From contig NZ_BMPB01000015.1 of the NCBI RefSeq assembly GCF_014647375.1, positions 163,245-227,244 of the forward strand: a stretch of 64,000 bases of DNA, read 5' to 3'. The position numbers were made by a program, and so were the translations under genes. Shown here piece by piece: positions 40,124-57,651 of the stretch. Position 1 is the first letter of the stretch; each line of letters starts with the position of its first letter. This stretch comes from Parabacteroides faecis. GTDB lineage: Bacteria > Bacteroidota > Bacteroidia > Bacteroidales > Tannerellaceae. The notes beneath the pieces are model-generated. The model saw nothing but the letters and a program-made list of their open reading frames with translations. It was not told where the DNA came from and made no database searches.

Positions 40124-40127
40124 AGAT

Positions 40128-41399: not shown

Positions 41400-41400
41400 T

Positions 41401-42195: not shown

Positions 42196-42232
42196 AAAGC
42201 AAATAGAAATATTAACTTTAAATAGAAACGAT

Positions 42233-43543
42233 ATGAAAAAACGGGTGATTGTTTTTTCCGGGCTTCTGTTACTAGGCTCGGTGTGGATGAAAGCAGATGA
42301 AAATGAAACATCCAAAGATAAGGAGAATACCTTCTCTATGAGTGCGCAGATACGCCCCAGGGCGGAATACCGCAACGGTGTATTAAATCCTCGTAGTGAA
42401 GGGCAGGGACCGGCAGGCTTTATCAACAACCGTGCCCGTCTTTCTATGAATTACGAGCGACAGAATCTCTCGCTGGGCCTTTCCGCACAGCATGTCGGTG
42501 TCTGGGGACAGGACCCGCAGATAGATAAGAACGGTCGCTTCATCCTGAACGAGGCATGGGCACAACTGGACTTCGGTTACGGCCTGTTTGCCAAACTCGG
42601 ACGCCAGTCCCTGATCTACGATGACGAACGCGTCCTTGGCGGGCTTGACTGGAACATTGCCGGTCGTTACCACGACGCTCTCAAACTCGGTTACGAAAAC
42701 AAAAAGAATAAACTCCACCTGATCCTCGCCTTCAACCAGAACGACGAAACTAAAATCGATGGCACCTTCTACGCCGACGGTGCGCAGCCCTACAAAAACA
42801 CGCAGACACTATGGTACCAGCACGTCGCCAGCAAAGAGTTTAAAGCTTCGTTCTTATTTATGAATCTCGGACTGGAAGCCGGTGAGCAGAAAGAACAAAA
42901 GTCCGACACGAAGTTCATGCAGACGATGGGTGCGAATCTGTACTATCAGCCGGGCGACTGGACTTTCGGCGGTACTTTCTATTACCAGTCAGGAAAGAAT
43001 AAGAACAAGCGTGACGTTTCCGCTTTTCTATGGGCGTTGAATGCCGCCTATAAATTCAATTCGCAGTGGAGCATGGGGATCGGTAGCGATTACCTGAGCG
43101 GTGCAGGCACAGCGGACGGTCCTGATGCCAAATACAAGGCTTTCGATCCGTTATACGGAACGCATCATAAGTTCTACGGTGCTATGGATTATTACTATGC
43201 CACACCGTTCAAGGACAACTTAAATCCGGGCTTGTGGGACAACCAGATAAAGGTCGCTTACAACGCTTCTTCAAAGGTAAACCTCGCCCTGACTTATCAT
43301 TACTTCTCGATCACCAGCGATCTCACTGTAAACGGCAAGGATCTCGATCGCGGCCTGGGTTCCGAACTCGATCTTCAGGTCGACTGGCAGATCATGAAAG
43401 ACGTGAAGCTCTCCGCAGGCTACTCTACCATGTTCGGAACATCGACGATGGAAGCTGTCAAAGGTGGCAGCAAAGATAGCTGGCAGGATTGGGGATGGTT
43501 GTCAATCAATATTAATCCAAGAATATTTACTGCCAAGTGGTAG
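42233..43543 (+). CDS. Alginate-export-like outer-membrane porin
   Basis: A 436-aa outer-membrane protein with a signal peptide (MKKRVIVFSGLLLLGSVWMKA). The mature part alternates polar and aromatic residues like a beta-barrel, and the N-terminal segment (SMSAQIRPRAEYRNGV, LGRQSLIYDDERVLGG) matches the alginate_exp family. Similar porins often go with nrfHA in Bacteroidales and may let nitrite or other ions pass the outer membrane. It starts 37 bp after ccsA and is probably the last gene of the nrf operon. Confidence 0.85.
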   Translation: MKKRVIVFSGLLLLGSVWMKADENETSKDKENTFSMSAQIRPRAEYRNGVLNPRSEGQGPAGFINNRARLSMNYERQNLSLGLSAQHVGVWGQDPQIDKNGRFILNEAWAQLDFGYGLFAKLGRQSLIYDDERVLGGLDWNIAGRYHDALKLGYENKKNKLHLILAFNQNDETKIDGTFYADGAQPYKNTQTLWYQHVASKEFKASFLFMNLGLEAGEQKEQKSDTKFMQTMGANLYYQPGDWTFGGTFYYQSGKNKNKRDVSAFLWALNAAYKFNSQWSMGIGSDYLSGAGTADGPDAKYKAFDPLYGTHHKFYGAMDYYYATPFKDNLNPGLWDNQIKVAYNASSKVNLALTYHYFSITSDLTVNGKDLDRGLGSELDLQVDWQIMKDVKLSAGYSTMFGTSTMEAVKGGSKDSWQDWGWLSININPRIFTAKW

Positions 43544-43547
43544 TTTG

Positions 43548-43594
43548 TAGTATCGGAAATGTTCTTATCTTTGTATGGAACATTTCCGATACTA
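43548..43594. promoter_or_regulatory. 17-bp inverted repeat enclosing the crp promoter -7 box
   Basis: TAGTATCGGAAATGTTC (43548-43564) and GAACATTTCCGATACTA (43578-43594) are perfect reverse complements, 13 bp apart. The spacer contains most of TATCTTTG (43566-43573), a -7 box. It starts 4 bp after the porin stop. It may be an autoregulatory operator, an RNA hairpin that ends the nrf operon, or both. Confidence 0.75.
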
Positions 43595-43606
43595 AATCAA
43601 TGCCGA

Positions 43607-44272
43607 ATGAATATAACCGATATCTTTAAAATACCACTGTTCCGGAATTTTACGCAGAAGATGCAGGACGAGTTTCTGGAGAATATAGAATATACTATTG
43701 AAGAGCATTCGAAAGGAAAAACCATTATCCACCAGGGTTCCCCCTGTCATGCCATACATGTATTGCTGGAAGGTAAGCTGAACGTAGATGTAGTCGACGT
43801 CTCAGGAGGCGAAGTACGGGTAGAGGTCATCAAGGCGCCCCGCACGTTTGCCACTCCGCATGTGTTTGCTGAAAAGAATCAGTTCCCTGCCACTTTCTCC
43901 GTCGAAGAAGATGTCGTTCTGATGAAGATACCCAAAGAATCATTCTTTAAGGTCATGCATACGACTCCCCTTTTACTCCATAATTTCCTTTGCGTCAGTA
44001 CGAGTTGCAACAAATGCACGATGACCCGCCTGCGTGTTTTGTCTTTTCGTGGCATCCGTAGCCGTTACATCTATTATTTGCTCGACCATCTGAAGGAAGG
44101 TGAAGATATCGTAGAGATGGAACATAATCAGGTGCAGCTCGCCGAATACTTCGGAGTCACGCGCCCCGCCCTTTCCAAGGAAATCGGCAAGCTCGTAGAC
44201 AGCAGCTTCATCAGCCTGGGCAGAGGAAAGGTGAAGATCCTGAACAAGCAAGCCCTGATAAACCTGTTATAG
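43607..44272 (+). CDS. Crp/Fnr-family transcriptional regulator (near nrf)
   Basis: A 221-aa regulator. I chose ATG 43607 (MNITDIFKIP), because the -7 box at 43566-43573 lies downstream of the earlier ATG 43559. N-terminal cyclic-nucleotide-type effector domain (about 10-125), long helix, then a C-terminal winged helix-turn-helix (QVQLAEYFGVTRPALSKEIGKL, near 182). It has no FNR-type N-terminal Cys cluster. A Cys pair (STSCNKC, near 137) lies at the dimer helix. By position it may control nrf genes in response to nitrite or NO. Autoregulation through the surrounding 17-bp repeat is possible. Confidence 0.88.
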   Translation: MNITDIFKIPLFRNFTQKMQDEFLENIEYTIEEHSKGKTIIHQGSPCHAIHVLLEGKLNVDVVDVSGGEVRVEVIKAPRTFATPHVFAEKNQFPATFSVEEDVVLMKIPKESFFKVMHTTPLLLHNFLCVSTSCNKCTMTRLRVLSFRGIRSRYIYYLLDHLKEGEDIVEMEHNQVQLAEYFGVTRPALSKEIGKLVDSSFISLGRGKVKILNKQALINLL

Positions 44273-44298
44273 CTTTGAATATATTCTTTTGCATCCCC

Positions 44299-44328
44299 TT
44301 GTGGAAAAAAATAATCATTGTACATTTG
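44299..44328 (+). promoter_or_regulatory. Consensus promoter of the NtrC-type regulator gene
   Basis: TTG (44299-44301), 19 bp, TACATTTG (44321-44328). This supports the start at 44354 rather than the earlier in-frame codon at 44318. Confidence 0.75.
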
Positions 44329-44353
44329 CGACGGTTATCAGAAACCGGACAAC

Positions 44354-45694
44354 ATGGGAAAAGTACTGATTATTGACGACGAAAAACAAATTTTAGGTTT
44401 ATTATCACGGATCATCGGACTGGAAGGATATGATGTTCTCCAGGCTGCCACCTGCAAAGCTGGCCTGAAGCAACTGGAGCAGCATACACCCGAAGTTATC
44501 CTGTGCGATGTCTGCCTGCCTGACGGCAGCGGCGTGGAACTTGTCAGCGAACTAAAGAAACTGCGCCCCTTCTCCGAAGTTATTTTACTGACGGCGCACG
44601 GTAATATCCCTGACGGTGTACAAGCGATCAAGAATGGTGCTTTCGACTACATTACCAAAGGCGATGATAACAATAAAATACTCCCCTTGATCGCAAAGGC
44701 GATGGAAAAAGCCTCTGCCGCCTATAAGCAGAGCAAGCTATCCACTTCGCTGGTCGGCAGACAATACTCATTCGATACCATCGTAGGCAAATCGCCTGCC
44801 ATTCAGGAAGCGATTGCCCTGGCCCGTAAGGTTGCCCAGACCGATGTGCCTGTCCTCCTGACCGGCGAAACCGGGACGGGCAAGGAAGTCTTCGCCCAAT
44901 CCATCCACCAACACAGTACCCGGAGCGGAAAAGCCTTTGTTGCGATCAATTGTTCTTCTTTCAGCCGCGATCTGTTGGAGAGCGAGATGTTCGGACACAA
45001 AGCCGGAGCCTTTACAGGCGCATTGAAAGAGACGAAAGGTCTTTTTGAAGAAGCCGACAACGGTACGATCTTCCTCGATGAGATCGGAGAAATGGCCTTC
45101 GACCTGCAAGCCAAGCTGCTCCGTATCCTTGAAACCGGCGAGTTCATCAAGATCGGCGATACCCGCCCCGTCAAGGTGAATGTCCGCGTCATAGCGGCTA
45201 CAAACCGTGACCTGTCGAAAGAGATTGCCGAGGGACATTTCCGGGAGGATTTATTCTACCGCCTGTCTGTCTTCCAGATCCATTTGCCGGCATTACGGGA
45301 GAGGGTGGAGGATATTCCGCTGCATGTAAAGGCTTTTGTCTCTACCTTGTCTGCCAAGATGGGAAAAGATATCAAGGCGATCTCTCCGGATTATATTGAT
45401 TTATTGAAAAAAAATCCCTGGAAAGGGAATGTGCGTGAGCTTCGCAATGTGGTAGAACGCAGCCTGATCATAGCCGATGGCGATACGCTGACCCCGGATT
45501 CATTGCCGTTAAATATACAGCGTACAGATGCAGTAGAAACAGATGCTTATGCCGGATTCGACCTAAGCGGCGTTGAGAAAATGCATATTCAGAAGGTACT
45601 TAAATATACGAAAGGAAATAAAACAGAGACTTCGCGCCTACTGGGGATCGGCTTGACAACGCTTTACAGGAAGATTGAAGAATATGGGTTGTGA
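44354..45694 (+). CDS. NtrC-type sigma-54-dependent response regulator
   Basis: A 446-aa response regulator. Receiver domain (1-120) with Asp52 (ILCDVCLPDGSG), a sigma-54 AAA+ domain with Walker A GETGTGKE, the sigma-54-contacting GAFTGA loop, Walker B DEIGEM, and R-finger region, then a Fis-type helix-turn-helix at the end (TSRLLGIGLTTLYRKIEEYGL). It activates RpoN-bound polymerase when phosphorylated. No histidine kinase adjoins it. A near-consensus -24/-12 promoter lies before kdp, 2.2 kb downstream, and the kdp locus ends with a kinase but no KdpE. I infer that it is the kdp regulator. Confidence 0.92.
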   Translation: MGKVLIIDDEKQILGLLSRIIGLEGYDVLQAATCKAGLKQLEQHTPEVILCDVCLPDGSGVELVSELKKLRPFSEVILLTAHGNIPDGVQAIKNGAFDYITKGDDNNKILPLIAKAMEKASAAYKQSKLSTSLVGRQYSFDTIVGKSPAIQEAIALARKVAQTDVPVLLTGETGTGKEVFAQSIHQHSTRSGKAFVAINCSSFSRDLLESEMFGHKAGAFTGALKETKGLFEEADNGTIFLDEIGEMAFDLQAKLLRILETGEFIKIGDTRPVKVNVRVIAATNRDLSKEIAEGHFREDLFYRLSVFQIHLPALRERVEDIPLHVKAFVSTLSAKMGKDIKAISPDYIDLLKKNPWKGNVRELRNVVERSLIIADGDTLTPDSLPLNIQRTDAVETDAYAGFDLSGVEKMHIQKVLKYTKGNKTETSRLLGIGLTTLYRKIEEYGL

Positions 45695-45708
45695 TTGGCT
45701 CTGACACA

Positions 45709-45739
45709 CTCCTTTGCCCCTTCCCAAGAGCAAAGGGAG
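45709..45739 (+). terminator. Hairpin after the NtrC-type gene
   Basis: CTCCTTTGC (45709-45717) pairs with GCAAAGGGAG (45730-45739) with one bulge; a TATTTT tract follows. It may also serve the minus-strand acetyltransferase ending at 45784. Confidence 0.55.
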
Positions 45740-45783
45740 GTATTTTCGTCACTATAAGAAAAGGGAATATGAAGGACATTCGC

Positions 45784-46452
45784 TTATCGTAAATAGGCTT
45801 CTACTTTCTGATAGAATGTTGCCAGATGCGCACCATCTACAAAACCATGATGCACATTGATCGCAACAGGCATCACCAGTTTTCCTTCCCTCACGACGGC
45901 CTTTCCGACGTTCAGCAACGGGTAACTGCTTCCGCTCGGTCGCTCCTGCGTGTGCGTCATCGATGTAAAATACAGGTCTGGCGTTGCGCTCACCAGGATA
46001 ACACTATACCGCTGGTCTTCGGTGGAGTCATTTTCGGTTCCGTACGGGTTTCCGTCTTCCGGAATAGAATCGATTATATGACGCGCTTCCCGATAGAAGG
46101 CCACAAAGTCCTCTTTCCACGGAATCCTCACCGTATAGAACTTCCCATTTGCTTGCATCCGGATAGGACACAACACATCGACAGTCTCAAAACATAGGAT
46201 CTGCCCCTCATTATCCACTCTGAACCGCAACTCTTCTATCTCATTTGCCGCCCGCAGGATCGCGTATAAATAATGCAGGAAAAAGGACTCCCCATTCTGT
46301 TTCGCTTTCTCTTTTGCCCCCGAGCATTCAACCTCTGACGTAATAGTTATACACGGATTCAGGAAATTTCTGAAGAAGTTAAAGTTATCTTTACGTTCCC
46401 ACGATTCAAAATCTACCATTCGCTTTTTAGGAAAAGTCGTTTGCTTGTCCAT
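45784..46452 (-). CDS. Chloramphenicol acetyltransferase-like (CatA-type) protein
   Basis: A 222-aa acyltransferase with the CAT active-site motif HHGFVDG at residues 201-207 (HHxxxDG) and the typical size (about 215). CAT enzymes move acetyl from acetyl-CoA to chloramphenicol, but many chromosomal relatives acetylate other acceptors. The gene is single, and no mobile element adjoins it. I therefore call it CAT-like and do not predict resistance. A -7 box, TATCTTTG on the minus strand (46480-46487), lies 27 bp upstream. Confidence 0.85.
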   Translation of the reverse strand: MDKQTTFPKKRMVDFESWERKDNFNFFRNFLNPCITITSEVECSGAKEKAKQNGESFFLHYLYAILRAANEIEELRFRVDNEGQILCFETVDVLCPIRMQANGKFYTVRIPWKEDFVAFYREARHIIDSIPEDGNPYGTENDSTEDQRYSVILVSATPDLYFTSMTHTQERPSGSSYPLLNVGKAVVREGKLVMPVAINVHHGFVDGAHLATFYQKVEAYLR

Positions 46453-46589
46453 TCGATACTAAGTTTAATTGATTGCCTGCAAAGATAGCGATTTCATATG
46501 AACGGAATGAGTTTCTAAATTGGATAGGTTTATATTTTGAATAAATTCAGAGATATTACAGTCTCTTTTGTATCATCGAAAATATTCAT

Positions 46590-46664
46590 TCACTTTTGCT
46601 GCAACTGATTGACGATATTATCGATCTGGGTTCTATACTCATTGTTCGTCCGGTCGGAGATAAA
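46590..46664 (-). pseudogene. Possible relic of a protein C-terminus
   Basis: About 24 codons open to a TGA stop, reading SDRTNNEYRTQIDNIVNQLQ near the end. It has protein-like composition in an otherwise AT-rich non-coding stretch and is closed upstream by an in-frame stop. It may be the remains of a deleted gene. Too short to name. Confidence 0.2.
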
Positions 46665-46822
46665 TTAAAACATGCTTGATAGGATTTTGACAATGGAGAT
46701 ACTTATTGTAAAATAATATTTATTAAATAAATGCTTTTCGTGGAGAATAATACTGTTAAATGTGTGTTGCTTATAGTGTTTGTAGAACTTGAAAAATAGT
46801 CAATAAAAGTGTTAAATATGAA

Positions 46823-47016
46823 TGACTAAAATAAACGAACGTTTTTTTCATTCATTTGCAAATGTATGATTTTATCTTAATTAAAAAAACAATTTCAAAG
46901 AAAAAAAATACAGAAGCATTGAATTTCCACAACTTCAAAAAAGCTAGGCAACAAAAATACAATATGTGAAGAGGTCTTAAAAAATGACTAGATAAAACGT
47001 TCGTTTTTTCTAGTCA
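46823..47016. repeat. Pair of 32-bp palindromes, locus B
   Basis: Two 32-bp motifs at 46823-46854 (diverged right half) and 46985-47016 (perfect ends TGACTAG and CTAGTCA, inner AAACGTTCGTTTT). Start-to-start distance is 162 bp. Same family, length and arrangement as 32242-32426. Confidence 0.7.
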
Positions 47017-47613
47017 TTTAATCATTAACTATTAAATACAATAAACAAACAAACTCCCTTATCGGGTCATAACTAATATTAGAATAGTATGGAACAACAG
47101 CAATACGATCATCCTCCGGTTATTCATTTATCATTTGATAATCAATAAATATAAAGAATTTCTGTTTTTTATATCATATCAGTTGGTTTGAATTAGTATT
47201 GAATAAAGATCCGGTTTGTCGAAAGAGAAATCCTGCTGAAAAGTTTTTCTGAAAATTGTTCGGCTTTGGCAATTTAATACAAAGAGTCACTCAAAGACGA
47301 TTTTTGAGGACTTTGAAGGAAAATACGGCTTTTTTAGTAATTGTATTAATTTGCTTGTAATCGACAGGATTATTCGACCGGCCTGAGATAGAATAAAAAT
47401 AAAACGAAGATAAACCGTATTATCCGATTGTATAGATAATTGAATATATGAATGATAGCACTAAAGTTCAGTCGGAGATAGGGATATATATTAGTTTTAG
47501 GGTTTAGAGCTTTTTTGCCTGCTTTGCGGGTAAATTAGTTATAAGTAGGACGAAACCGTGAGGTTTTATGGAAATTCCCTGTCGTGATGACACGGAACAT
47601 TAATACTAGACTA

Positions 47614-47709
47614 GGTGTATCAGATGGTTTGCGAGTCAGAAAATATGCTATACGCACTTAACATATTATTTTCTACTCATCATCCTTAAGCAAACTTATC
47701 TGGTACACC
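47614..47709. repeat. Unclassified 96-bp imperfect inverted repeat
   Basis: Left arm GGTGTATCAGATGGTTTGC with GAGTCAGAAAATATG; right arm (reverse strand) GGTGTACCAGATAAGTTTGC with GAGTAGAAAATAATATG. The arms would fold into a long hairpin. There is no ORF or T-run typical of a terminator. Confidence 0.5.
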
Positions 47710-47755
47710 ATTTTTTTGTAAAGAGTTTTTTTACTTCCCCGACGCTGTTTTCATC

Positions 47756-47783
47756 TTTCCGTTTTAATATGTTTTTCCGTTTT
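47756..47783. repeat. Direct repeat upstream of the kdp promoter
   Basis: TTTCCGTTTT at 47756-47765 and again at 47774-47783, 18 bp apart. It lies about 110-140 bp upstream of the -24/-12 promoter, where sigma-54 activators often bind. Confidence 0.3.
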
Positions 47784-47890
47784 GGTAGGCTGACCCTTTC
47801 AAAATGGTAGGGTTGTATTCTCGTCTCCTAATCTTTGTTTTTAGGATAAGTGTTTATGTATCAAATCCTCATGTGTGTGTCTTCCTTTTC

Positions 47891-47906
47891 TGGCACGCCT
47901 TTGGCA
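47891..47906 (+). promoter_or_regulatory. Sigma-54 (RpoN) promoter of the kdp operon
   Basis: TGGCACGCCTTTGGCA matches the -24/-12 consensus TGGCACGNNNNTTGCA except for one base in the -12 element (TGGC for TTGC). The GG and GC doublets have the correct spacing. The expected start is near 47918, 35 bp before the first small ORF of kdp. The sigma-54-dependent regulator at 44354 is the natural activator. Confidence 0.75.
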
Positions 47907-47952
47907 TATAGTAGGGCGAAACGATTAGTATTAACGATTAAATAACAAAGGT

Positions 47953-48054
47953 ATGTTAGAAAATGAGATTGTATCATTGATTTTTGTATGCGGAGTAGGG
48001 AGTCTCTGCTATTGGTTCTTTTTCAAGTGTGTAGATTGGTTCGAAAAGATTTAA
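47953..48054 (+). CDS. 33-aa single-helix membrane peptide, first in kdp operon
   Basis: ATG 47953 to TAA 48052-48054. The peptide has one membrane helix (about 7-25, with two Cys and aromatic residues) and an acidic-basic tail (DWFEKI). It lies 16 bp before kdpF and directly behind the sigma-54 promoter, so it is probably translated. It is not KdpF; I recognise no family. Confidence 0.55.
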   Translation: MLENEIVSLIFVCGVGSLCYWFFFKCVDWFEKI

Positions 48055-48070
48055 AGAAAGGAGAGAAGAT

Positions 48071-48151
48071 ATGTTTATCGCATTGTTTATACTCTGTCTC
48101 GTGATCTTCGGGTATCTGATGTATGTATTGGTGAAGCCCGAAAAGTTTTAA
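48071..48151 (+). CDS. kdpF: K+-transporting ATPase subunit KdpF
   Basis: A 26-aa hydrophobic peptide ending GYLMYVLVKPEKF, the characteristic end of KdpF (compare GYLVYALINAEAF in E. coli). KdpF stabilises the KdpFABC complex in the membrane. It has a GAGAGAAG ribosome-site-like run just upstream and precedes kdpA by 21 bp. Confidence 0.85.
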   Translation: MFIALFILCLVIFGYLMYVLVKPEKF

Positions 48152-48172
48152 ACAAATAATGAGGATGAAAAG

Positions 48173-49885
48173 ATGAATACGGAATTAGTAGGTAGCATCA
48201 CGCAAATAGTATTGATGATCGTCCTGGCGTATCCGCTGGGAATGTACATCGCAAAAGTATATAAAGGAGAGAAGACCTGGCTGGACTTCATGGCTCCGGT
48301 GGAACGTTTTATTTTCAGGCTGTGCGGCATCGACCCGAATGTGGAGATGAGTTGGAAAAGTTTCCTGAAAGCACTTCTGACAATCAATCTCTTCTGGTTT
48401 TTCTGGGGAGTCCTGCTCTTGTATTTCCAGCAGTATCTACCGCTGAACCCCGATGGCAACGCAGGACAGTCGTCGCATCTGTCGTTCAACACCTGCATCA
48501 GCTTCATGGTGAACTGTAACTTGCAGCATTACAGCGGTGAGAGCGGATTGACCTATTTTACACAGTTGTTCGTGATTATGCTGTTCCAGTTTATTACGGC
48601 GGCAACCGGTATGGCTGCGCTGGCGGGTGTCTTCAAGGCGATGGCATCGAAAACGACACAGACGATCGGTAACTTCTGGAATCTGTTGATGAAAAGCTGT
48701 ACCCGTATCCTATTACCACTTGCCCTGATCGTTGGCTGTATCCTGATCGTGGAAGGTACGCCGATGGGATTTGACGGAAAGATGAAGTTGACGACACTGG
48801 AAGGTACCGAACAAATGGTTTCGCAGGGTCCGGCTGCCGCTATCATCCCGATCAAACAGTTGGGGACGAACGGAGGCGGTTACTTCGGAGTCAATTCATC
48901 GCATCCGCTGGAAAATCCGACATATCTGACCAATATGGTCGAATGCTGGGCAATCCTTGTCTTGCCGATGGCGATGGTCTTTGCATTGGGATTCTACCTG
49001 AAACGGAAGAAACTGGCTTATTCGATCTTCGGAGTGATGTTGTTTGCCTATCTGGCGAGCGTTGCGATCAATACGCACTATGAGACGAAGGGAAACCCGA
49101 TGATCTCGGCGATGGGAATCGACCAGCGCGCGGGAGCGATGGAAGGAAAAGAGACGCGGCTCGGAGCGGCAGCCACTGCACTGTGGAGTTGTACGACGAC
49201 GGTGACCTCCAACGGGTCGGTGAACGGTATGCACGACAGCACGATGCCTCTGTCGGGAATGATGGAGATGCTGAACATGCAGATCAATACCTGGTTCGGC
49301 GGCGTGGGCGTAGGATTCATGAATTATTACGCATTCCTGATCATTGCCGTCTTTATCAGCGGTTTAATGGTAGGGCGTACGCCGGAATTCCTGGGTAAAA
49401 AAGTAGAGGCGCGTGAAATGAAGATAGCAACGATCGTGGCGCTGGCACATCCGTTCGTGATATTAATCGGTACGGCGGTGGCTTGCTACTATTGGGTATA
49501 TAACCCGGCTTTTGTGGAGGCGGAAGGTGGTTGGCTGAACAATCCGGGGTTCCACGGTTTCAGTGAGATGCTTTACGAATATACGTCGTCTTCAGCGAAT
49601 AACGGTTCCGGTTTTGAAGGACTGGGCGATAATACTTACTTCTGGAACTTTACGACCGGTCTGGCTCTGATCATCAGCCGTTATCTTCCGATCGTGGGGC
49701 AGGTTGCCATTGCAGGACTGCTGGCTCAGAAGAAATATATACCGGAAAGTGCAGGGACATTAAAGACGGATACGGCGACATTTGCCGTGATGACATTCAG
49801 TGTGATCTTTATCGTAGCCGCTTTGTCTTTCTTCCCTGCACTGACGCTGGGACCGATTGCGGAGTATTTCTCGATTTACAGATAA
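48173..49885 (+). CDS. kdpA: K+-transporting ATPase subunit KdpA
   Basis: A 570-aa channel-like subunit that carries the K+ selectivity filter of the high-affinity Kdp pump. About 10 helices; filter-type Gly motifs such as TNGGGYFGVNSSHP (near 230) and SANNGSGFEG (near 475) are present. The length is typical (about 560). Its neighbours kdpF and kdpB are in the usual order. Kdp is made when cells are short of K+. Confidence 0.97.
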   Translation: MNTELVGSITQIVLMIVLAYPLGMYIAKVYKGEKTWLDFMAPVERFIFRLCGIDPNVEMSWKSFLKALLTINLFWFFWGVLLLYFQQYLPLNPDGNAGQSSHLSFNTCISFMVNCNLQHYSGESGLTYFTQLFVIMLFQFITAATGMAALAGVFKAMASKTTQTIGNFWNLLMKSCTRILLPLALIVGCILIVEGTPMGFDGKMKLTTLEGTEQMVSQGPAAAIIPIKQLGTNGGGYFGVNSSHPLENPTYLTNMVECWAILVLPMAMVFALGFYLKRKKLAYSIFGVMLFAYLASVAINTHYETKGNPMISAMGIDQRAGAMEGKETRLGAAATALWSCTTTVTSNGSVNGMHDSTMPLSGMMEMLNMQINTWFGGVGVGFMNYYAFLIIAVFISGLMVGRTPEFLGKKVEAREMKIATIVALAHPFVILIGTAVACYYWVYNPAFVEAEGGWLNNPGFHGFSEMLYEYTSSSANNGSGFEGLGDNTYFWNFTTGLALIISRYLPIVGQVAIAGLLAQKKYIPESAGTLKTDTATFAVMTFSVIFIVAALSFFPALTLGPIAEYFSIYR

Positions 49886-49934
49886 CAATTGATAGGTGTA
49901 ATATTCATATCGATATACGAAAAGAATAAATAAT

Positions 49935-51977
49935 ATGAAAGATAAAAAAGCTGCTTCCTTATTTCCTAAGGAGCTTGTTATAGAAAGTTTTAAACAATCG
50001 TTCGTGAAGCTTGACCCGCGTACGATGTTCCGGAATCCGATCATGTTCATCGTAGAGATCGTGACGTTCGTAATGCTTCTTGTTACCCTTTGGGCCGCTG
50101 TGACAGGCGATCATACACAAGGTTCGTTCGGATATAACATATTGGTATTCATTGTGCTGTTTGTCACCTTGCTCTTTGCCAACTTCGCCGAAGCCATCGC
50201 CGAAGCCCGTGGCAAAGCGCAGGCAGACAGTTTACGGAAAACCCGTGAGGAAACACCAGCTAAGCTGGTTGGTGCGAATGAAAGCATTACGACAGTAAGC
50301 AGTTCGCAACTGAAGAAAGGCGATATCTTTATCTGTGAGGCAGGCGATACGATCCCGTCCGACGGCGAGATCATCGAAGGGCTGGCATCTATCGACGAGA
50401 GTGCCATTACAGGTGAGTCCGCTCCGGTGATCCGGGAAGCGGGCGGCGATAAAAGTTCGGTGACGGGCGGTACGAAAGTTTTGTCCGACCAGATACGGGT
50501 GAGAGTGACGACGCAGCCGGGAGAGAGCTTCTTGGATAAGATGATTGCCCTTGTCGAGGGTGCGTCCCGCAAGAAAACACCGAATGAGATTGCGTTGACG
50601 ATCTTATTGGCAGGTTTTACACTGGTGTTTGTGGTAGTTTGCGGTACCTTGAAACCGATGGCGGATTATTCGAATACGCAGATCACGATCGCAGCCTTCA
50701 TCTCTTTGTTCGTTTGTCTGATACCGACTACGATCGGGGGACTGCTTTCAGCGATTGGTATCGCTGGTATGGACCGGGCGTTGCGTGCAAATGTAATCAC
50801 CAAGTCGGGTAAGGCTGTGGAGACGGCAGGCGATATCGATACCCTGCTGCTCGACAAAACGGGAACGATCACGATAGGTAACCGGAAGGCTACGCAGTTT
50901 TATCCGGTGACATGGATCGACGAACATTCATTTGTGCAGGCTTGCCTGCTGGCGTCCTTGTCCGACGAAACTCCGGAAGGTAAATCGATTGTAGAGTTGG
51001 GACGCGAAAAGGGTGTCCGCATCCGCGACCTGAGTACTTCGGGTTCACGCATGATCAAATTTACGGCGGAGACAAAATGTTCGGGTGTCGACCTGAAAGA
51101 TGGTACGCGTATCCGTAAAGGTGCTTTCGATGCTATCCGTAAGATGAGTGAGGCGGCAGGAAACAAGTATCCGCAGGAAGTAGCCGAGCTGGTGGAGAAG
51201 ATATCGGGTAACGGAGGTACGCCGCTGGTCGTTTCGCAGGATGATTTCATTATCGGTGTGATCGAATTGCAGGATATCATCAAGCCGGGTATCCAGGAAC
51301 GTTTTGAACGCCTGCGCAAGATGGGGGTAAAAACGGTTATGGTAACGGGTGATAACCCTTTGACAGCTAAATATATTGCGGAAAAGGCAGGTGTGGACGA
51401 TTATATCGCCGAAGCAAAGCCGGAAGATAAGATGAACTACATCAAGAAGGAGCAGGAAGCCGGAAAACTGGTCGCCATGATGGGTGACGGTACGAATGAC
51501 GCTCCCGCACTGGCACAGGCGAATGTCGGCGTTGCGATGAACAGTGGTACGCAGGCAGCGAAGGAGGCTGGCAACATGGTGGATCTTGATAATGACCCAA
51601 CAAAGCTGATCGAGATCGTGGAAATCGGTAAGCAGTTGCTGATGACACGCGGTACGTTGACTACATTCAGTATCGCAAACGATGTCGCCAAGTATTTTGC
51701 GATCGTACCGGCTTTGTTCATGGTAGCGATCCCGCAGTTGGCTGCACTGAACATTATGCATCTGCATAGTCCGGAGAGTGCCATCCTGAGCGCGGTTATT
51801 TTCAACGCGATCATCATCCCTATCCTGATACCGCTGGCTTTGCGCGGGGTCGCTTACAAGCCGATCGGTGCTTCTGCTTTGCTTCGTCGCAACCTGTTGA
51901 TATATGGGGTGGGAGGTATAGTCGCTCCCTTCGTAGGCATCAAGCTGATCGATATGGTAGTCAGTCTTTTTATGTAA
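49935..51977 (+). CDS. kdpB: K+-transporting ATPase subunit KdpB (P-type ATPase)
   Basis: A 680-aa P-type ATPase that powers KdpA. The phosphorylated Asp is in [10 protein letters not shown] (near 313). The TGES motif (AITGESAPV) and the hinge [19 protein letters not shown] (near 520) are present. Seven membrane helices and length about 680, as normal. It follows kdpA by 49 bp. Confidence 0.97.
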
Positions 51978-52007
51978 TGCAGTAATAATTTTAAAATAAC
52001 GAATAAT

Positions 52008-52589
52008 ATGATATCGACTCTTTTTAAATCATTTAAACTGACCGTAGCATTCTGTATTTTATTCAGTGTGTGCTACATCTTCATCCTGTGGATTTTTGCA
52101 CAGGTCGCTGGTCCAAACAAAGGAAATGCAGATGTTGTCGAATTGAACGGAAAGATCGTAGGTGCCGCAAACGTCGGCCAGACCTTCACGCAGGACATTT
52201 ATTTCTGGGGGCGTCCCTCCTGTGCGGGCGACGGCTATGATGCTTCCTCTTCCGGCGGCAGTAACAAAGGCCCTTCCAACGAAGAATACCTTGCCGAAGT
52301 AGAATCCCGCATCGACACTTTCCTGGTGCACCATCCTTATCTGAAACGTGGGGAAGTCCCTGCCGAGATGGTCACCGCCAGCGGTTCCGGACTCGATCCC
52401 GATATCTCTCCGAAAGCCGCATACGTGCAGGTACAACGGGTGGCGGCAGCACGCGGCCTCTCTCCTGAAAAAGTGATGGCCCTGGTGAGTGCTAATACGG
52501 AAGGATCCCTGTTAGGTTTGTTCGGTCCCGAAAAGGTCAATGTCCTGAAACTGAATGTCGCTTTGGAGAAAGCGGCAATGAATAAATAA
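52008..52589 (+). CDS. kdpC: K+-transporting ATPase subunit KdpC
   Basis: A 193-aa subunit with one N-terminal helix (about 10-32) and a periplasmic domain with the family's FWGRPSCAGDGYDASSSGGSN and GLDPDISPKAAYVQVQRVA motifs. KdpC is required for K+ affinity and complex assembly. It lies 30 bp after kdpB. Length is as usual. Confidence 0.96.
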   Translation: MISTLFKSFKLTVAFCILFSVCYIFILWIFAQVAGPNKGNADVVELNGKIVGAANVGQTFTQDIYFWGRPSCAGDGYDASSSGGSNKGPSNEEYLAEVESRIDTFLVHHPYLKRGEVPAEMVTASGSGLDPDISPKAAYVQVQRVAAARGLSPEKVMALVSANTEGSLLGLFGPEKVNVLKLNVALEKAAMNK

Positions 52590-52633
52590 CCGGAATAAAA
52601 CAGATGACAATAACAACTTGAATATATAAGAAT

Positions 52634-53407
52634 ATGAAATCTATCGTTAAAAATATCACATTAGCCTCTCTGATCTTCTCTTTATCTTCCTTTACTGCCT
52701 TGAAAGCGGAGGAAAACGAAAGCCCCGTAAACTTCACTGTCCAGGGTGACCTCGTGAGTTCCTATATCTGGAGAGGCTTCTACCAAACGGGAGCAAGTTT
52801 CCAACCGACACTGGCATTCAGTGCCGGAGGCTTCTCCCTGACAGCATGGGGATCGACCGATTTCGACGGTTACAAATCCTCGGAAGGTGCCGCCAACAAA
52901 GAGATCGACCTCACTGCCGCCTATACCTTTGGAAACTCCGGTCTGACCCTCTCCATCGCCGACCTCTGGTGGGCAGGTCAAGGTGCGAACAAGTACTTCA
53001 ACTTCAAAAGCCATGAAACGGCACATCATTTTGAAGCGGGCGTAGCCTATACACTCCCGGTTGAGAAACTTCCCCTCTCGATCGCCTGGTACACTATGTT
53101 CGCCGGACAGGATAAGGATGCCGACGACAATCAAAATTATTCATCTTATGTCGAATTGAACTATCCTTTCTCAGTAAAAATGGTAGATTTGAATCTGACC
53201 TGCGGTTTTCTTCCTTATACTTCTTACGGCGTATATACCGGTACGAAGACCAACGACGGATTTGCTGTTACCAACGTCGCGCTCAAAGGAAGTACGGCAA
53301 TAAAGTTCAGCGATTCATTCTCTTTGCCTATATTTGCGCAGGCTATTTGGAATCCTCGTATGGAAGACGCTCATTTAGTGTTTGGAATATCGTTAAGACC
53401 GTGGTAA
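52634..53407 (+). CDS. Outer-membrane beta-barrel-like protein in the kdp operon
   Basis: A 257-aa secreted protein (signal peptide to about residue 25). The N-terminal part of the mature protein (VQGDLVSSYIWRGFYQTGAS) and the alternating polar/aromatic pattern, ending in F-x-x-RPW, look like a small outer-membrane barrel of the Gcw_chp/TorF kind. It lies between kdpC and kdpD, 45 bp after kdpC. I infer a pore or a sensor linked to K+ uptake, but no function is known to me. Confidence 0.6.
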   Translation: MKSIVKNITLASLIFSLSSFTALKAEENESPVNFTVQGDLVSSYIWRGFYQTGASFQPTLAFSAGGFSLTAWGSTDFDGYKSSEGAANKEIDLTAAYTFGNSGLTLSIADLWWAGQGANKYFNFKSHETAHHFEAGVAYTLPVEKLPLSIAWYTMFAGQDKDADDNQNYSSYVELNYPFSVKMVDLNLTCGFLPYTSYGVYTGTKTNDGFAVTNVALKGSTAIKFSDSFSLPIFAQAIWNPRMEDAHLVFGISLRPW

Positions 53408-53424
53408 TCTGAAACAGGCAACTC

Positions 53425-54546
53425 ATGGACAGAGAACAAAGCGTACAACACTTTTTAGATTTGCTGAAAAAGTCCCGTCGCGGCAATTTCAAGATCTACA
53501 TCGGTATGATCGCCGGTGTAGGCAAGACATACCGCATGCTGCAGGAGGCGCACGAATTGCTTCGCAGCGGAATAGACGTGCAGGTCGGCTATGTGGAAAC
53601 CCACGGCAGGACTGAAACGGAGGCGTTGGTAGAAGGTTTACCTTTGATACCGCGCCGCCGGTCGTTTTACAAGGGGAAGGAAGTGGAGGAGATGGATTTG
53701 CAGGCAATCCTGAATATCCATCCGGAGGTCGTGATCGTGGACGAACTGGCACATACCAATATCGATGGAAGCAAGAACGAAAAGCGTTGGCAGGATGTGA
53801 CGGATATTTTAGAAGCAGGTATCAGCGTGATTACGGCAGTAAATATCCAGCATCTGGAAGGTCTGAACGAAGATGTGCAGGATATCACCGGCATCGAGAT
53901 CAAAGAACGCATCCCCGACAGTGTCCTGGAGCAGGCGGATGAGGTCGTGAATATCGACCTGACAGCCGATGAACTGGTGAAACGCTTGAAAGCGGGCAAG
54001 ATATACAAGCCGGAAAAGATTCCGACGGCACTGAATAACTTCTTTAAATCCGAAAACATTCTCCAGCTACGCGAACTGGCCTTGAAGGAGGTTGCCCTCC
54101 GTGTCGAGAAGAAGGTGGAGAGCGCTGTCCCGGTCAATACCGGTGTCCGCCACGAGAAGTTCCTGGCCTGCATCAGCAGTAATGAAAAGACGCCGAGGAA
54201 AGTGATCCGCAAGGCGGCGCGGCTGGCTACCCGCTACAACACGAAGTTCTTTGTTCTTTACGTGCAAACGCCGCGCGAAAGTATCGAGCGCATTCCGCTG
54301 GCAAACCAGCGTTATCTGTCCAACCATTTCAAACTGGCGGCAGAGTTGGGAGGCGAGGTGATGCAGGTCCAGTCGAAAAGTATCCCCGACAGCATTATCG
54401 AGGTATGCCACGAAAAGCAGATCACGACCGTCTGTATCGGAAAGCCTGTTTTTACGCTCACTTCCGTCCTTCGCGCTTGTTTCCAGTACCGGAAATTGCT
54501 GAATAGCTTGTCACAAATGAATATTGACCTGATAATATTGGCATAA
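53425..54546 (+). CDS. kdpD: KdpD-type sensor protein lacking the kinase domain
   Basis: A 373-aa protein equal to the cytoplasmic N-terminal part of KdpD only. It has a Walker A-like motif (GMIAGVGKTYRML, 27-39), VDELAHTN near 111 and the KdpD signature, then a universal-stress-type domain (about 245-373). E. coli KdpD has about 890 residues and continues with four helices, HisKA and HATPase; all of that is missing here. A full histidine kinase gene starts 1 bp later, so the sensor and kinase halves have been separated. It presumably reports K+ or ATP state to that kinase. Confidence 0.92.
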   Translation: MDREQSVQHFLDLLKKSRRGNFKIYIGMIAGVGKTYRMLQEAHELLRSGIDVQVGYVETHGRTETEALVEGLPLIPRRRSFYKGKEVEEMDLQAILNIHPEVVIVDELAHTNIDGSKNEKRWQDVTDILEAGISVITAVNIQHLEGLNEDVQDITGIEIKERIPDSVLEQADEVVNIDLTADELVKRLKAGKIYKPEKIPTALNNFFKSENILQLRELALKEVALRVEKKVESAVPVNTGVRHEKFLACISSNEKTPRKVIRKAARLATRYNTKFFVLYVQTPRESIERIPLANQRYLSNHFKLAAELGGEVMQVQSKSIPDSIIEVCHEKQITTVCIGKPVFTLTSVLRACFQYRKLLNSLSQMNIDLIILA

Positions 54547-54547
54547 C

Positions 54548-56278
54548 ATGTTACAGTCTATTAGTTTAAAGATTAAAACGAAGCTCACCTACGGAATAGG
54601 TCTGCTGTTTGCAATGATCGTCCTGTTGGGCGGTCTGTCGGTAAAGAATATCTACCGTATGTCGGCAGATACGCAGAATATCCTTGCGGATAATTACAAC
54701 ACATTGCTGTATTCCCGCCGTATGTTGGATGCGCTCGAACGCATCAAGACCGACCCGGTGGCACGGAACGAATTTGAAAAGAACCTGGGCCTGCAAAAGG
54801 AGAATATAACAGAGGTGGACGAGAATGCAGCGACCACTCATCTGGTCACACAATATGAATCGATGAAGAAAGACATGAACGATGCTTCCATCCAACGTGT
54901 CCGCATCGCTTTGAACGAGGTGATGAGCCTGAACATGGCTTCTATCTACCGAAAAAGCCAGGTAGCGGAACATACTGCGCATGAAGCGTTGCTATGGATC
55001 TGCATCATCGGTATCACCTGTATTCTGATTGCCTTTGCTTTCCTGATACGTCTCCCGCGATCCATCAATACTCCGATTCGTAAGCTGACAGACGGTATCA
55101 TGGAAATTGCCAACCATAATTATGAGAAGCGTCTCGACCTGGGAAAATACGAGGAATTTACCGAAGTTGCCCAATCGTTCAACCGGATGGCGGAGCGTCT
55201 GACCGAATACCGTAAAAGTACGCTTTCCGATATTATTCAGGGTAAGAAATACATCGAAGCCATCGTAAACAGCATTACCGAACCGATCATCGGCCTGGAT
55301 GGTAACCGTATCATTCTTTTTGCCAACGACGTGGCGTTAACTATCCTCAATCTGAAACGTGAAAATGTGATTGGCAAATCCGCCGCCGAACTCGCTTTAA
55401 AGAACGATCTGTTGCGCCGCCTCGTCCGTGAATTGGTTCAGCCGAACGAAAAGGAAGAACCGCTCAAGATCTATGCCGATAATAAAGAAAGTTATTTCAA
55501 AGTCCAGTATATCCCTATTCATGTAACGGACGACCAGAAAAACGGCAGCCAGTATGTCGGCGACGTAATTCTTCTGAAGAATATCACAGAGTTCAAGGAG
55601 CTCGATTCAGCAAAGACAACCTTCATCTCGACCATCTCCCATGAGCTGAAAACACCTATCTCTGCCATTATGATGAGCCTCAAGCTCCTGGAAGATAACC
55701 GTGTCGGCAATATGAACGACGAGCAAAAGGCGTTGGCTGAAAGTATCAAGGAAAGCAGCGACCGCCTTCTGGAAATAACCGGCGAACTGCTTAAAATGAC
55801 GCAGGTGGAAACCGGTAAACTACAGTTGAACCCGAAGATCACCAAGCCGATCGAACTGATCGACTACGCGATTAAGGCAAACCGTGTGCAAGCGGAGCGG
55901 TTCGGCTGCCACATTGAAGTCGAGTATCCGGAGAAGATCTCCAAGCTGTTTGTCGATAGCGAAAAGATTGCCTGGGTATTGACCAACCTGTTATCGAACG
56001 CCATCCATTACACGCCGGAAAACGGTCGTATCATCATTGGAGCCCGTCAGGAGGGCAAATCCCTGGAGATATTCGTCCGCGATTTCGGTAAAGGCATCGA
56101 TTCCCGTTACCATCAAAGCATCTTCGACCGTTACTTCCGTGTCCCCGGAACCAAAGTGCAGGGTAGCGGCCTCGGACTGGCGATCAGCAAAGACTTTGTC
56201 GAAGCGCATGGCGGTACGATCCGTGTGGAAAGCGAAGTCGGTAAAGGGAGTACGTTCATTATAAAATTTGAAGTCTGA
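54548..56278 (+). CDS. HAMP-PAS sensor histidine kinase, kdp locus
   Basis: A 576-aa membrane kinase: two helices (about 13-32 and 148-170) bracket a periplasmic loop, then HAMP (170-225), PAS (about 235-345), HisKA with His in TISHELKTP (near 362) and HATPase with NLLSNAIHYTPENG, DFGKGID and GSGLGLAIS. It starts 1 bp after the truncated kdpD, so the two are co-expressed. I infer it is the kinase that takes the place of KdpD's missing half. Its likely target is the NtrC-type regulator at 44354, as there is no KdpE. Confidence 0.9.
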   Translation: MLQSISLKIKTKLTYGIGLLFAMIVLLGGLSVKNIYRMSADTQNILADNYNTLLYSRRMLDALERIKTDPVARNEFEKNLGLQKENITEVDENAATTHLVTQYESMKKDMNDASIQRVRIALNEVMSLNMASIYRKSQVAEHTAHEALLWICIIGITCILIAFAFLIRLPRSINTPIRKLTDGIMEIANHNYEKRLDLGKYEEFTEVAQSFNRMAERLTEYRKSTLSDIIQGKKYIEAIVNSITEPIIGLDGNRIILFANDVALTILNLKRENVIGKSAAELALKNDLLRRLVRELVQPNEKEEPLKIYADNKESYFKVQYIPIHVTDDQKNGSQYVGDVILLKNITEFKELDSAKTTFISTISHELKTPISAIMMSLKLLEDNRVGNMNDEQKALAESIKESSDRLLEITGELLKMTQVETGKLQLNPKITKPIELIDYAIKANRVQAERFGCHIEVEYPEKISKLFVDSEKIAWVLTNLLSNAIHYTPENGRIIIGARQEGKSLEIFVRDFGKGIDSRYHQSIFDRYFRVPGTKVQGSGLGLAISKDFVEAHGGTIRVESEVGKGSTFIIKFEV

Positions 56279-56307
56279 TAGTAATTTAGATAACACAGTA
56301 AACAATC

Positions 56308-57651
56308 ATGAAAGTATTGAAATTTGGCGGTACATCTGTTGGCTCAGCCCAACGGATGAAGAACGTCGTATCTATAATCCGTAATGGAGAACCTAAAATT
56401 GTCGTCTTATCAGCTATGTCCGGAACGACCAATTCGCTGGTCGACATCACCCGCTGTTTCTACCGTAAGGAGGCTGATGAAGCAAATAAGATCATCACCC
56501 GTCTGGAGCAGACCTATGCCGGACATATCGAGGATTTATATTCTTCTGTCGCCTATAAGGAAAAGGCTCTGGAACTGGTCATGGAGCGCTTCAACGTAAT
56601 CTGGGCGTTCGCCGATACACCTTTTACCATATTTGATGAGAAAGTGGTCCTGGCACAGGGTGAATTGATCTCGACCGGAATGATGCACTTATACTTGCAG
56701 GAGCAGGGAATAAAATCCGCTTTGCTTCCGGCTCTCGATTTTATGCGGATCAATGCTGATGGAGAACCGGATATGGCATATATCTCAGAGCATCTCAATA
56801 ACCAGCTTTCCCGCTTCCCCGGTACCGGAATCTTCATCACACAGGGTTTCATTTGCCGGAATGCATACGGAGAGACGGACAATCTGCAACGTGGCGGAAG
56901 TGACTATTCCGCTTCCCTGATCGGAGCTGCCATCCATGCTGAAGAAATACAGATATGGACGGATATTGACGGTATGCATAACAACGATCCCCGCGTAGTG
57001 GATCACACGGCACCTGTCCGCCAATTGAATTTTGAAGAGGCAGCGAAGCTCGCATATTTCGGCGCGAAAATACTCCATCCTTTCTGTATCCGCCCGGCAA
57101 AGGATAACAATATCCCTGTCCGCCTGCTAAGCTCTTTGCAGCCGGAGGTTCCCGGAACACTGATCTCCAATACGGCAGAGAAGGGAAGGATCAAGGCGGT
57201 AGCGGCGAAAGATAATATCGTGTTCATTAAGATGAAGTCGTTGAATATTTTACCACCTCATAAGTTCCTGAATGTGGTTTTTGAAACGTTCGCTCTTTAT
57301 AAAACGGCTGTCGACATGGTGACGACATCGGATATCGGTGTCTCTGTGACCATAGATAATCCTGAACATTTACAGGAAATAGTTACAAACCTGGAAAAGT
57401 ATGCAACGATCTATGTGGAAAGGGATATGGTGATCGTATGTGTTGTCGGAGATCTTGAATGGCAGAATGTCGGCTTTGAAGCCCGTATCATAGATGCGTT
57501 AAAAGATATCCCTGTGCGGATGATCTCTTACGGAGGAAGTAGCAGTAACGTCTCGCTGGTTATGAAGTCTGCCGATAAAGCTCGGGCGCTGCAAGCATTA
57601 AGCTCTCGCCTGTTCCCGAAACCGGATGTACCGGAACCTGTCGGTGCATAG
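56308..57651 (+). CDS. lysC: Aspartate kinase
   Basis: A 447-aa aspartokinase, first step of Lys, Thr and Met synthesis. It begins MKVLKFGGTSVGS, with the kinase motif FITQGFICRNAYGETDNLQRGGSDYSAS near 180, and ends with two ACT-type regulatory domains (about 300-440), where amino-acid feedback binds. No homoserine dehydrogenase is fused. It lies 29 bp after the kdp kinase, so read-through from kdp is possible, but its role is unrelated. Confidence 0.95.
   Translation: MKVLKFGGTSVGSAQRMKNVVSIIRNGEPKIVVLSAMSGTTNSLVDITRCFYRKEADEANKIITRLEQTYAGHIEDLYSSVAYKEKALELVMERFNVIWAFADTPFTIFDEKVVLAQGELISTGMMHLYLQEQGIKSALLPALDFMRINADGEPDMAYISEHLNNQLSRFPGTGIFITQGFICRNAYGETDNLQRGGSDYSASLIGAAIHAEEIQIWTDIDGMHNNDPRVVDHTAPVRQLNFEEAAKLAYFGAKILHPFCIRPAKDNNIPVRLLSSLQPEVPGTLISNTAEKGRIKAVAAKDNIVFIKMKSLNILPPHKFLNVVFETFALYKTAVDMVTTSDIGVSVTIDNPEHLQEIVTNLEKYATIYVERDMVIVCVVGDLEWQNVGFEARIIDALKDIPVRMISYGGSSSNVSLVMKSADKARALQALSSRLFPKPDVPEPVGA

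Follow-up and report, generated by a model that had tools for sequence, protein, structure and literature searches.

A 64,000-nucleotide stretch of the genome of Parabacteroides faecis (NCBI RefSeq assembly GCF_014647375.1, contig NZ_BMPB01000015.1, positions 163,245 to 227,244 of the forward strand), here called the window and numbered from its first letter, harbours a kdp potassium uptake locus that very probably constitutes a KdpE-less, sigma-54-controlled potassium-limitation system with a short KdpD as the probable brake of the pump. Control of kdp through sigma-54 by an NtrC-type protein, as proposed in the initial annotation of this DNA, gains support from a conserved promoter and palindrome, from the phyletic match of regulator and locus, from covariation of the helix-turn-helix (HTH) domain of the regulator with the palindrome and from the near-single-copy occurrence of the palindrome in genomes. 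The two features that define a KdpD/KdpE system, a KdpD with histidine kinase domain and an OmpR-type KdpE, are both missing, so the locus does not belong to this type; on the other hand, a -24/-12 element of the TGG-N10-GC type and, elsewhere in the genome, RpoN are present. The elements of the locus, including its open reading frames (ORFs), are as follows.

44354..45694, plus strand: NtrC-type response regulator, proposed kdp activator (Pfam Response_reg, Sigma54_activat, HTH_8)
47771..47791, no strand: possible second palindrome copy, weaker than the main one and 22 nt upstream of it, read by eye
47793..47813, no strand: proposed activator site (upstream activating sequence, UAS) ACCCTTTCA-AAA-TGGTAGGGT, 21 bp, 98 nt before the -24 element
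47891..47906, plus strand: predicted -24/-12 (sigma-54) promoter TGGCACG-CCTT-TGGCA, predicted start near 47917
47953..48054, plus strand: 33-aa membrane-like ORF, first gene past the promoter, with matches in many relatives
48071..48151, plus strand: kdpF, 26 aa (PF09604)
48173..49885, plus strand: kdpA (TIGR00680)
49935..51977, plus strand: kdpB, with Glu161 and Ser162 present (TIGR01497)
52008..52589, plus strand: kdpC (TIGR00681)
52634..53407, plus strand: porin-like protein (weak Gcw_chp/TorF match)
53425..54546, plus strand: short KdpD, KdpD plus Usp-like domain (PF02702; NF038185 below cut-off)
54548..56278, plus strand: HAMP-PAS histidine kinase (HAMP, PAS, HisKA and HATPase_c, Pfam)

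The comparison rests on 119 loci, window included and one duplicate removed. KdpA is present in 25 of 198 Bacteroidales genomes (order) and in 18 of 99 Tannerellaceae genomes (family); regions were taken for 39 KdpA loci, two genomes of the order being excluded (G022 with a fragment, G058 with a short contig), and 80 further named loci are the best 80 matches of one scan of genome contigs. Class A comprises the 95 loci with a KdpA at least 53% identical to that of the window, and class B the 24 loci with a more distant KdpA, which derive from Bacteroidales (15) and, by their record titles, from Bacillota (9).

The NtrC-type regulator, found by Pfam where the initial annotation had placed it upstream of kdp, consists of a receiver with Asp52, an AAA+ domain with Walker A and GAFTGA (residue 218) and a Fis-type HTH, and all 25 among its NCBIfam matches listed score under their own cut-offs. 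An ortholog, defined in the loci by at least 50% identity, lies within the locus in 82 of the 95 class-A loci, in 80 of them upstream of kdp, and in none of the 24 class-B loci. Within the family, the ortholog is found wherever the genome has a class-A kdpA (17 genomes) and is missing from the other 82 (n=99; Fisher p 2e-19, a statistic that ignores kinship), including G261, which carries a class-B kdpA; the family orthologs share at least 57% identity, and the best match in any other genome reaches 42%. The gene is found on a contig other than that of kdp in G200, and in G281, which forms the L106/L107 pair with G262, the kdp-adjacent copy is degraded and another copy, 86% identical to that of the window, is located elsewhere; the same holds for G262. 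Beside the degraded copies in L106 and L107, the promoter and weak palindromes persist. The 6.66 Mb genome of the window encodes one RpoN and 12 strong Sigma54_activat matches among 16, and all 64 genomes searched for RpoN have a match. Regulator, kinase and short KdpD occur together in 65 of the 78 class-A loci with enough sequence on both sides. Class B, which lacks the regulator, has a KdpE-like gene in 14 of 24 loci and a KdpD kinase part in 15 of 24, among them 12 of the 15 Bacteroidales loci (the remaining 3 sit on short or cut contigs), which points to two types of Kdp control that exist side by side within the order.

The sigma-54 consensus reads TGGCACGN4TTGCW, from which TGGCACGCCTTTGGCA (47891-47906) differs by one mismatch; as the initial annotation had described, the site starts 62 nt before the 33-aa ORF (47953); from the start of the site to kdpF the distance is 180 nt. 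Such a lone site is weak evidence, because sites with at most one mismatch number 57 genome-wide as compared to 34 for the reversed pattern, and it is the comparison with relatives that turns the evidence for a predicted sigma-54 promoter strong. Of the 25 class-A loci of the order, the window being one, 11 score at least 14/16 in a consensus scan and none of the 15 class-B loci does; scores of 12 and 13 are present in both classes. When a half-site score with textbook spacing is applied, 21 of 29 Bacteroidales class-A loci pass (1.65 expected), a conservation that the initial annotation had suggested to look for in the kdp upstream regions of other Bacteroidales. A promoter matrix trained on Bacteroidales was discarded, as no more than 15 of the 70 other class-A loci, and 1 of 24 of class B, reached p<0.05. 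Once one extra spacer base was allowed, the -12 part outside Bacteroidales was found to be shifted by one base, and with this later form 39 of 66 loci of other Bacteroidota pass (4.4 expected). Class B stays at 1/24 for textbook spacing (2.1 expected) and 3/24 for the later form (2.65 expected). A G at the textbook register, which is unscored in the later form, occurs there in 28 of 28 thinned rows, and the scored G of the -12 part of the textbook-spaced form in 25 of 26; the C of the -12 part shows only partial conservation among relatives.

A feature absent from the initial annotation is the palindrome at 47793-47813. When the regions upstream of kdp were searched blindly for spaced inverted words, TATCA-N3-TGATA was recovered in 23 and ACCCT-N11-AGGGT in 17 of the 95 class-A loci, as compared to maximum counts of 5-9 in ten shuffled sets, and both words turned out to be the main types of one 21-bp palindrome, AGCCTATCA-N3-TGATAGGCT and ACCCTTYCA-N3-TGRAAGGGT. 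Since the UAS consensus was derived from the same loci as were counted, shuffles, class B and whole-genome scans served as controls: at least 10 of 12 points are scored in 62/95 class-A loci (0.9 expected from shuffles) and in 0/24 class-B loci (0.5 expected), and palindrome and promoter 80-130 nt apart are seen in 64/95 loci of class A (0.95 expected) and 1/24 of class B (0.3 expected). The 64 distances cluster at 94-98 nt (41 loci, with 98 nt in the window), 104-106 (11), 115-118 (7) and 120-121 (3), besides one of 84 and one of 92; steps of about one helical turn are a requirement of a looping activator, which fits these distances. The longer distances are phased, with R 0.60 at an assumed period of 10.5 nt, a value attained in a fraction of 0.0009 of random draws from 100-125. 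The commonest extra site in the 64 relatives is a second, weaker core 19-23 nt upstream, and among the 31 class-A loci below the pair threshold, 15 were viewed, several of which hold degenerate palindrome copies by eye. The palindrome is likely to be a binding site of the NtrC-type activator.

Genome-wide, the palindrome appears to be close to specific for kdp. In the genome of the window, a zero-mismatch copy occurs at kdp only, and other matches, with 2 mismatches, stay at control level. The AGCCTATCA form was found with at most 2 mismatches in 18 of 19 genomes and the ACCCTT form with at most 1 in 23 of 24, the genome of the window among the latter, and reversed-pattern controls are zero in all palindrome-scanned genomes but G000, that of the window. 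At no more than one mismatch, exactly one palindrome exists in 17/19 and 20/24 genomes; G245 has a tandem pair, and G319 and G334 a second palindrome elsewhere. Of 13 extra palindromes, 5 were inspected. The one in G319 (a Mucilaginibacter metagenome-assembled genome, L199) precedes a gene for a 657-aa Kup potassium transporter (L292:1292-3406; PF02705, E 3e-149), and 84 nt past it TGGCATACCCCTTGTT can be read by eye, a site not listed by the scan; next to the other four (G338 two, G340, G334) no potassium gene was evident by eye. Extra palindromes in Pedobacter are located at L188:6681 and L201:5115, the latter just before a gene for an M20-type deacetylase-like protein, a relative of which, the family being assigned by inspection, lies between regulator and kdp in L188.

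The regulator and its candidate site seem, equally, to have changed together. Among 446 regulator columns, 435, 431 and 434 carry most information on palindrome type in the 50 loci whose second base could be labelled clearly, and by analogy with known Fis-type HTHs these three would lie in the recognition helix or the residues that lead into it. Agreement is seen in 53 of 55 loci, where Ala435 goes along with TATCA half-sites and Thr435 with other types. When the HTH is left out of the tree, residue 435 and palindrome type change six times each, and 2 of 411,036 independent traits simulated with 5-7 changes match equally well, which after multiplication by 446 columns amounts to ~0.002. The simulations were used because an independent-pairs test had only 2 or 3 pairs on supported branches and, therefore, low power.

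The initial annotation had described KdpD as reduced to its nucleotide-binding and Usp halves; the KdpD domain (PF02702, residues 18-227) and the lack of a histidine kinase domain hold, while the Usp match is only sub-threshold (21.4 vs a cut-off of 24 bits), and the match to NF038185 reaches 358 bits with a cut-off of 550. A short KdpD is encoded in 87 of the 95 class-A loci, and aligned to E. coli KdpD these proteins retain G-X5-GK[TS] and the Walker B Asp-Glu in 87/87 loci, Arg190 in 86/87 and Tyr or Phe in place of Trp39 in 87/87; Glu161 and Ser162 of KdpB are kept in 94/94 loci. According to the accessible parts of a study of KdpD variants (PMC11018627; Silberberg et al., 2024), those KdpD residues are tied to the serine phosphorylation of KdpB at Ser162, which is inactivating in E. 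coli. As these residues are retained, the short KdpD is probably a serine kinase that brakes the pump via KdpB rather than a sensor that drives transcription, and the wording of a soluble sensor chosen in the initial annotation finds no support. Of the cyclic di-AMP motif SXS-X20-FTAXY, equivalents of Ser244 and Tyr271, described as important for cyclic di-AMP binding in Staphylococcus aureus in the available text of PMC4686210, are found in 79/87 and 85/87 proteins, and the second Ser and FTA are not kept; a diadenylate cyclase is present in the genome.

One histidine kinase, the HAMP-PAS kinase, is conserved in the locus, namely in 81 of 95 class-A loci; in the window its ORF (54548-56278) begins 1 bp past the short KdpD stop, as the initial annotation had stated. 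The same annotation had noted a regulator without adjacent kinase, and indeed the sole H-box found by regular expression in the window, SHELKTP, is that of the linked kinase. Phosphorylation of the NtrC-type regulator by this kinase is plausible. When the kinases of the window (54548-56278), L092, L093, L094, L110, L112 and L114 are compared, a long form (~576 aa) and a short form (~480 aa) are seen; as the short form is without much of the region before HAMP, this region may not be the potassium sensor. Equally, the window has no OmpR-type KdpE, in agreement with the initial annotation, since a search of the whole genome with E. coli KdpE matches only the NtrC-type receiver there. A KdpE elsewhere that acts on kdp was considered and set aside, the best candidate (37% identity, on another contig) being far from kdp and having its own adjoining kinase.

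In the proposed chain of events, the HAMP-PAS kinase (54548-56278) would sense potassium or osmotic shortage and phosphorylate the regulator (44354-45694), which, as conservation and HTH covariation suggest, would bind the palindrome, loop the DNA and activate RNA polymerase with RpoN at 47891-47906, where conserved sequence and spacing point to such an activation. The transcript would, judging from the layout, run from the small ORF through kdpFABC and the porin-like gene to the genes of the short KdpD and of the kinase. Upon potassium being plentiful, the short KdpD would halt the pump by phosphorylation of KdpB Ser162, for which the residues are present and the activity is extrapolated from E. 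coli and Deinococcus; perhaps this action is gated by cyclic di-AMP. Promoter, palindrome, their geometry and the tie of the regulator to kdp are established, as predicted elements, by comparison of the loci; we infer the dependence on RpoN, the role of the linked kinase as phosphate donor, the signal and the action of the short KdpD as a serine kinase.

A number of observations weigh against this scheme. All support is sequence comparison. With respect to the promoter, sites with few mismatches show a modest excess in the genome, the GG and the G of the textbook-spaced form belonged to the scoring, and the -12 part differs from textbook TTGC, being TTGGCA one base early in most Bacteroidales and TTGG elsewhere; the presence of RpoN is, moreover, a weak test, and the RpoN match of G333 holds stop codons. 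With respect to the palindrome, 31/95 class-A loci fall below the pair threshold, counting and derivation of the consensus share their loci, and R is still higher at periods of 11 and 11.5, so that the period is not fixed. In the covariation analysis, columns 162 and 277, outside the HTH, rank close behind, the HTH mean is hardly higher than that of the rest (0.17 vs 0.15 bits), and residue 435 and half-site label were picked after looking. A KdpE-like gene occurs also in 3/95 class-A loci. Finally, kinase and regulator genes are not adjacent but 8.9 kb apart in the window, and an H-box of the SHELKTP type is usually paired with OmpR-type regulators.

Some of these observations might be accommodated by TGGCA-TTGGCA, which also reads as a direct repeat, being the site of another factor, with kdp transcribed from a vegetative promoter and KdpE located elsewhere. 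The deviating -12 half, the modest genomic excess of -24/-12 sites (57 vs 34) and, in 14/95 loci, two exact copies of TGGCA separated by 6 nt fit such a scenario, which is nevertheless improbable given that GG and G stand at the textbook register even where unscored, that the spacing to the activator palindrome is fixed, that a GAFTGA-type activator is tied to kdp and that the best KdpE-like protein has its own adjoining kinase. Even less probable is that kdp is mainly under a cyclic di-AMP riboswitch or constitutive: according to the available text of PMC11018627, species with short KdpD mostly carry diadenylate cyclase, as the genome of the window does, but the conserved activator site and promoter speak against it, and the Rfam matches within 43500-57000, listed up to an E of 1, include no riboswitch, the sole match there being to a small RNA family far below gathering score.

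Sigma-54 control by the NtrC-type regulator would equally be compatible with unlinked kinase(s) of its own, the linked HAMP-PAS kinase serving another regulator. The separation of the two genes by 8.9 kb would agree with this, as would SHELKTP in the linked kinase as compared to HEIRNPL in a kinase of L001, a locus with a further NtrC-type gene from the genome of the window; this comparison is thin, as a recognisable H-box was found in L001 only of 12 short loci and the GAFTGA scan missed several. The presence of the kinase in 81/95 class-A loci, its company with regulator and short KdpD in 65/78, and the fact that no other regulator was seen common to class-A loci make separate partners rather unlikely. 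We are similarly doubtful that the short KdpD is a potassium sensor that feeds transcription by acting on the separate kinase: the two genes adjoin in the window, yet the serine-kinase residues in 86 or 87 of 87 loci and KdpB Glu161/Ser162 in 94/94 fit direct action on the pump, with which a second role remains compatible.

Several neighbouring genes accompany the locus. The 33-aa ORF at 47953-48054, for which no Pfam or NCBIfam family was matched, has matches across many Bacteroidales loci as well as in some further Bacteroidota, and is a possible extra small Kdp subunit. The porin-like gene (52634-53407) sits between kdpC and short kdpD in many Bacteroidales loci and might perhaps provide an outer-membrane route for potassium. 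Between regulator and kdp, a chloramphenicol-acetyltransferase-family protein (PF00302) is encoded at 45784-46452 on the minus strand, followed by ~1.4 kb without ORFs of at least 80 aa; in many relatives the gap from regulator to kdpF is only 200-600 bp. Directly upstream of the NtrC-type gene, 38639-44272 holds nrfA-like, cytochrome-assembly-like and porin-like genes and a Crp/Fnr-type regulator (names partly by inspection), a neighbourhood common to G277 and partly G259, where kdp is more distant.

The initial annotation had named no precedent for the link of sigma-54 to kdp; such control had already been mapped, split KdpD included, in Desulfovibrio vulgaris. As reported in the accessible parts of two studies, DVU3334 is a sigma-54-dependent regulator mapped by DAP-chip to its own kdp operon, and KdpD is split into DVU3336 (K+ sensor and UspA domains) and DVU3335 (kinase part) (Rajeev et al., 2011, PMC3333781; 2015, PMC4641369), therefore this kind of system is already known. 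With DVU3334-3339 the P. faecis locus shares an NtrC-type regulator with GAFTGA, kdpFABC and split KdpD, a likeness taken from the published description. Differences are the phylum, the position of regulator and kinase genes inside the D. vulgaris kdp operon and, as far as the available text conveys, two further regulators that target kdp there; orthologs of DVU3334 were described, among the genomes screened in that work, only for D. vulgaris Miyazaki and S. fumaroxidans. The locus is best called one that works like the D. vulgaris system, a phylum-wide instance of that kind. In E. coli the same pump is controlled and the KdpD N-terminal domain is homologous, but one full-length KdpD with histidine kinase acts with OmpR-type KdpE, a form shared by 12/15 Bacteroidales class-B loci. 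The short KdpD resembles that of Deinococcus geothermalis (NF038185), a KdpD plus Usp domain with serine-kinase residues kept, as given in the available text of PMC11018627, which names Bacteroidota among phyla with mainly short KdpD. For kdp without full KdpD or riboswitch, this text describes a separate two-component system in some species and, for those in which no such kinase has been identified, considers constitutive expression or another unknown mechanism; it lists separate systems for D. radiodurans, Anabaena and Alicyclobacillus and, in the parts accessible, mentions none for Bacteroidota. Receiver, AAA+, Fis-type HTH and a palindrome ~100 nt before -24/-12 are shared with NtrC-type enhancer-binding proteins generally, unlike which the target is potassium uptake.

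A report of sigma-54 control of kdp in Bacteroidota was not found among the papers listed in literature searches: by word search, kdp and potassium are absent from the main text, as far as available, of a 2025 sigma-54 regulon survey that discusses Bacteroidota (PMC12316311), and the accessible portions of PMC2875401, PMC7366714, PMC10745434, PMC5438104 and PMC3162934 have no bearing on it. It is rather likely that Bacteroidota possess a phylum-wide dedicated sigma-54 potassium-limitation regulon, in which a kinase and an NtrC-type activator would serve kdp and, in some species, kup, the palindrome type would coevolve with a recognition-helix residue, and the transcription and serine-kinase arms would reside on separate proteins instead of a fused KdpD. 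Such a regulon offers a concrete, testable answer on kdp control in Bacteroidota, with activator, binding site, promoter and sigma factor, and would provide a natural split of the transcription and inactivation arms of Kdp as well as a natural series of activator-site changes.

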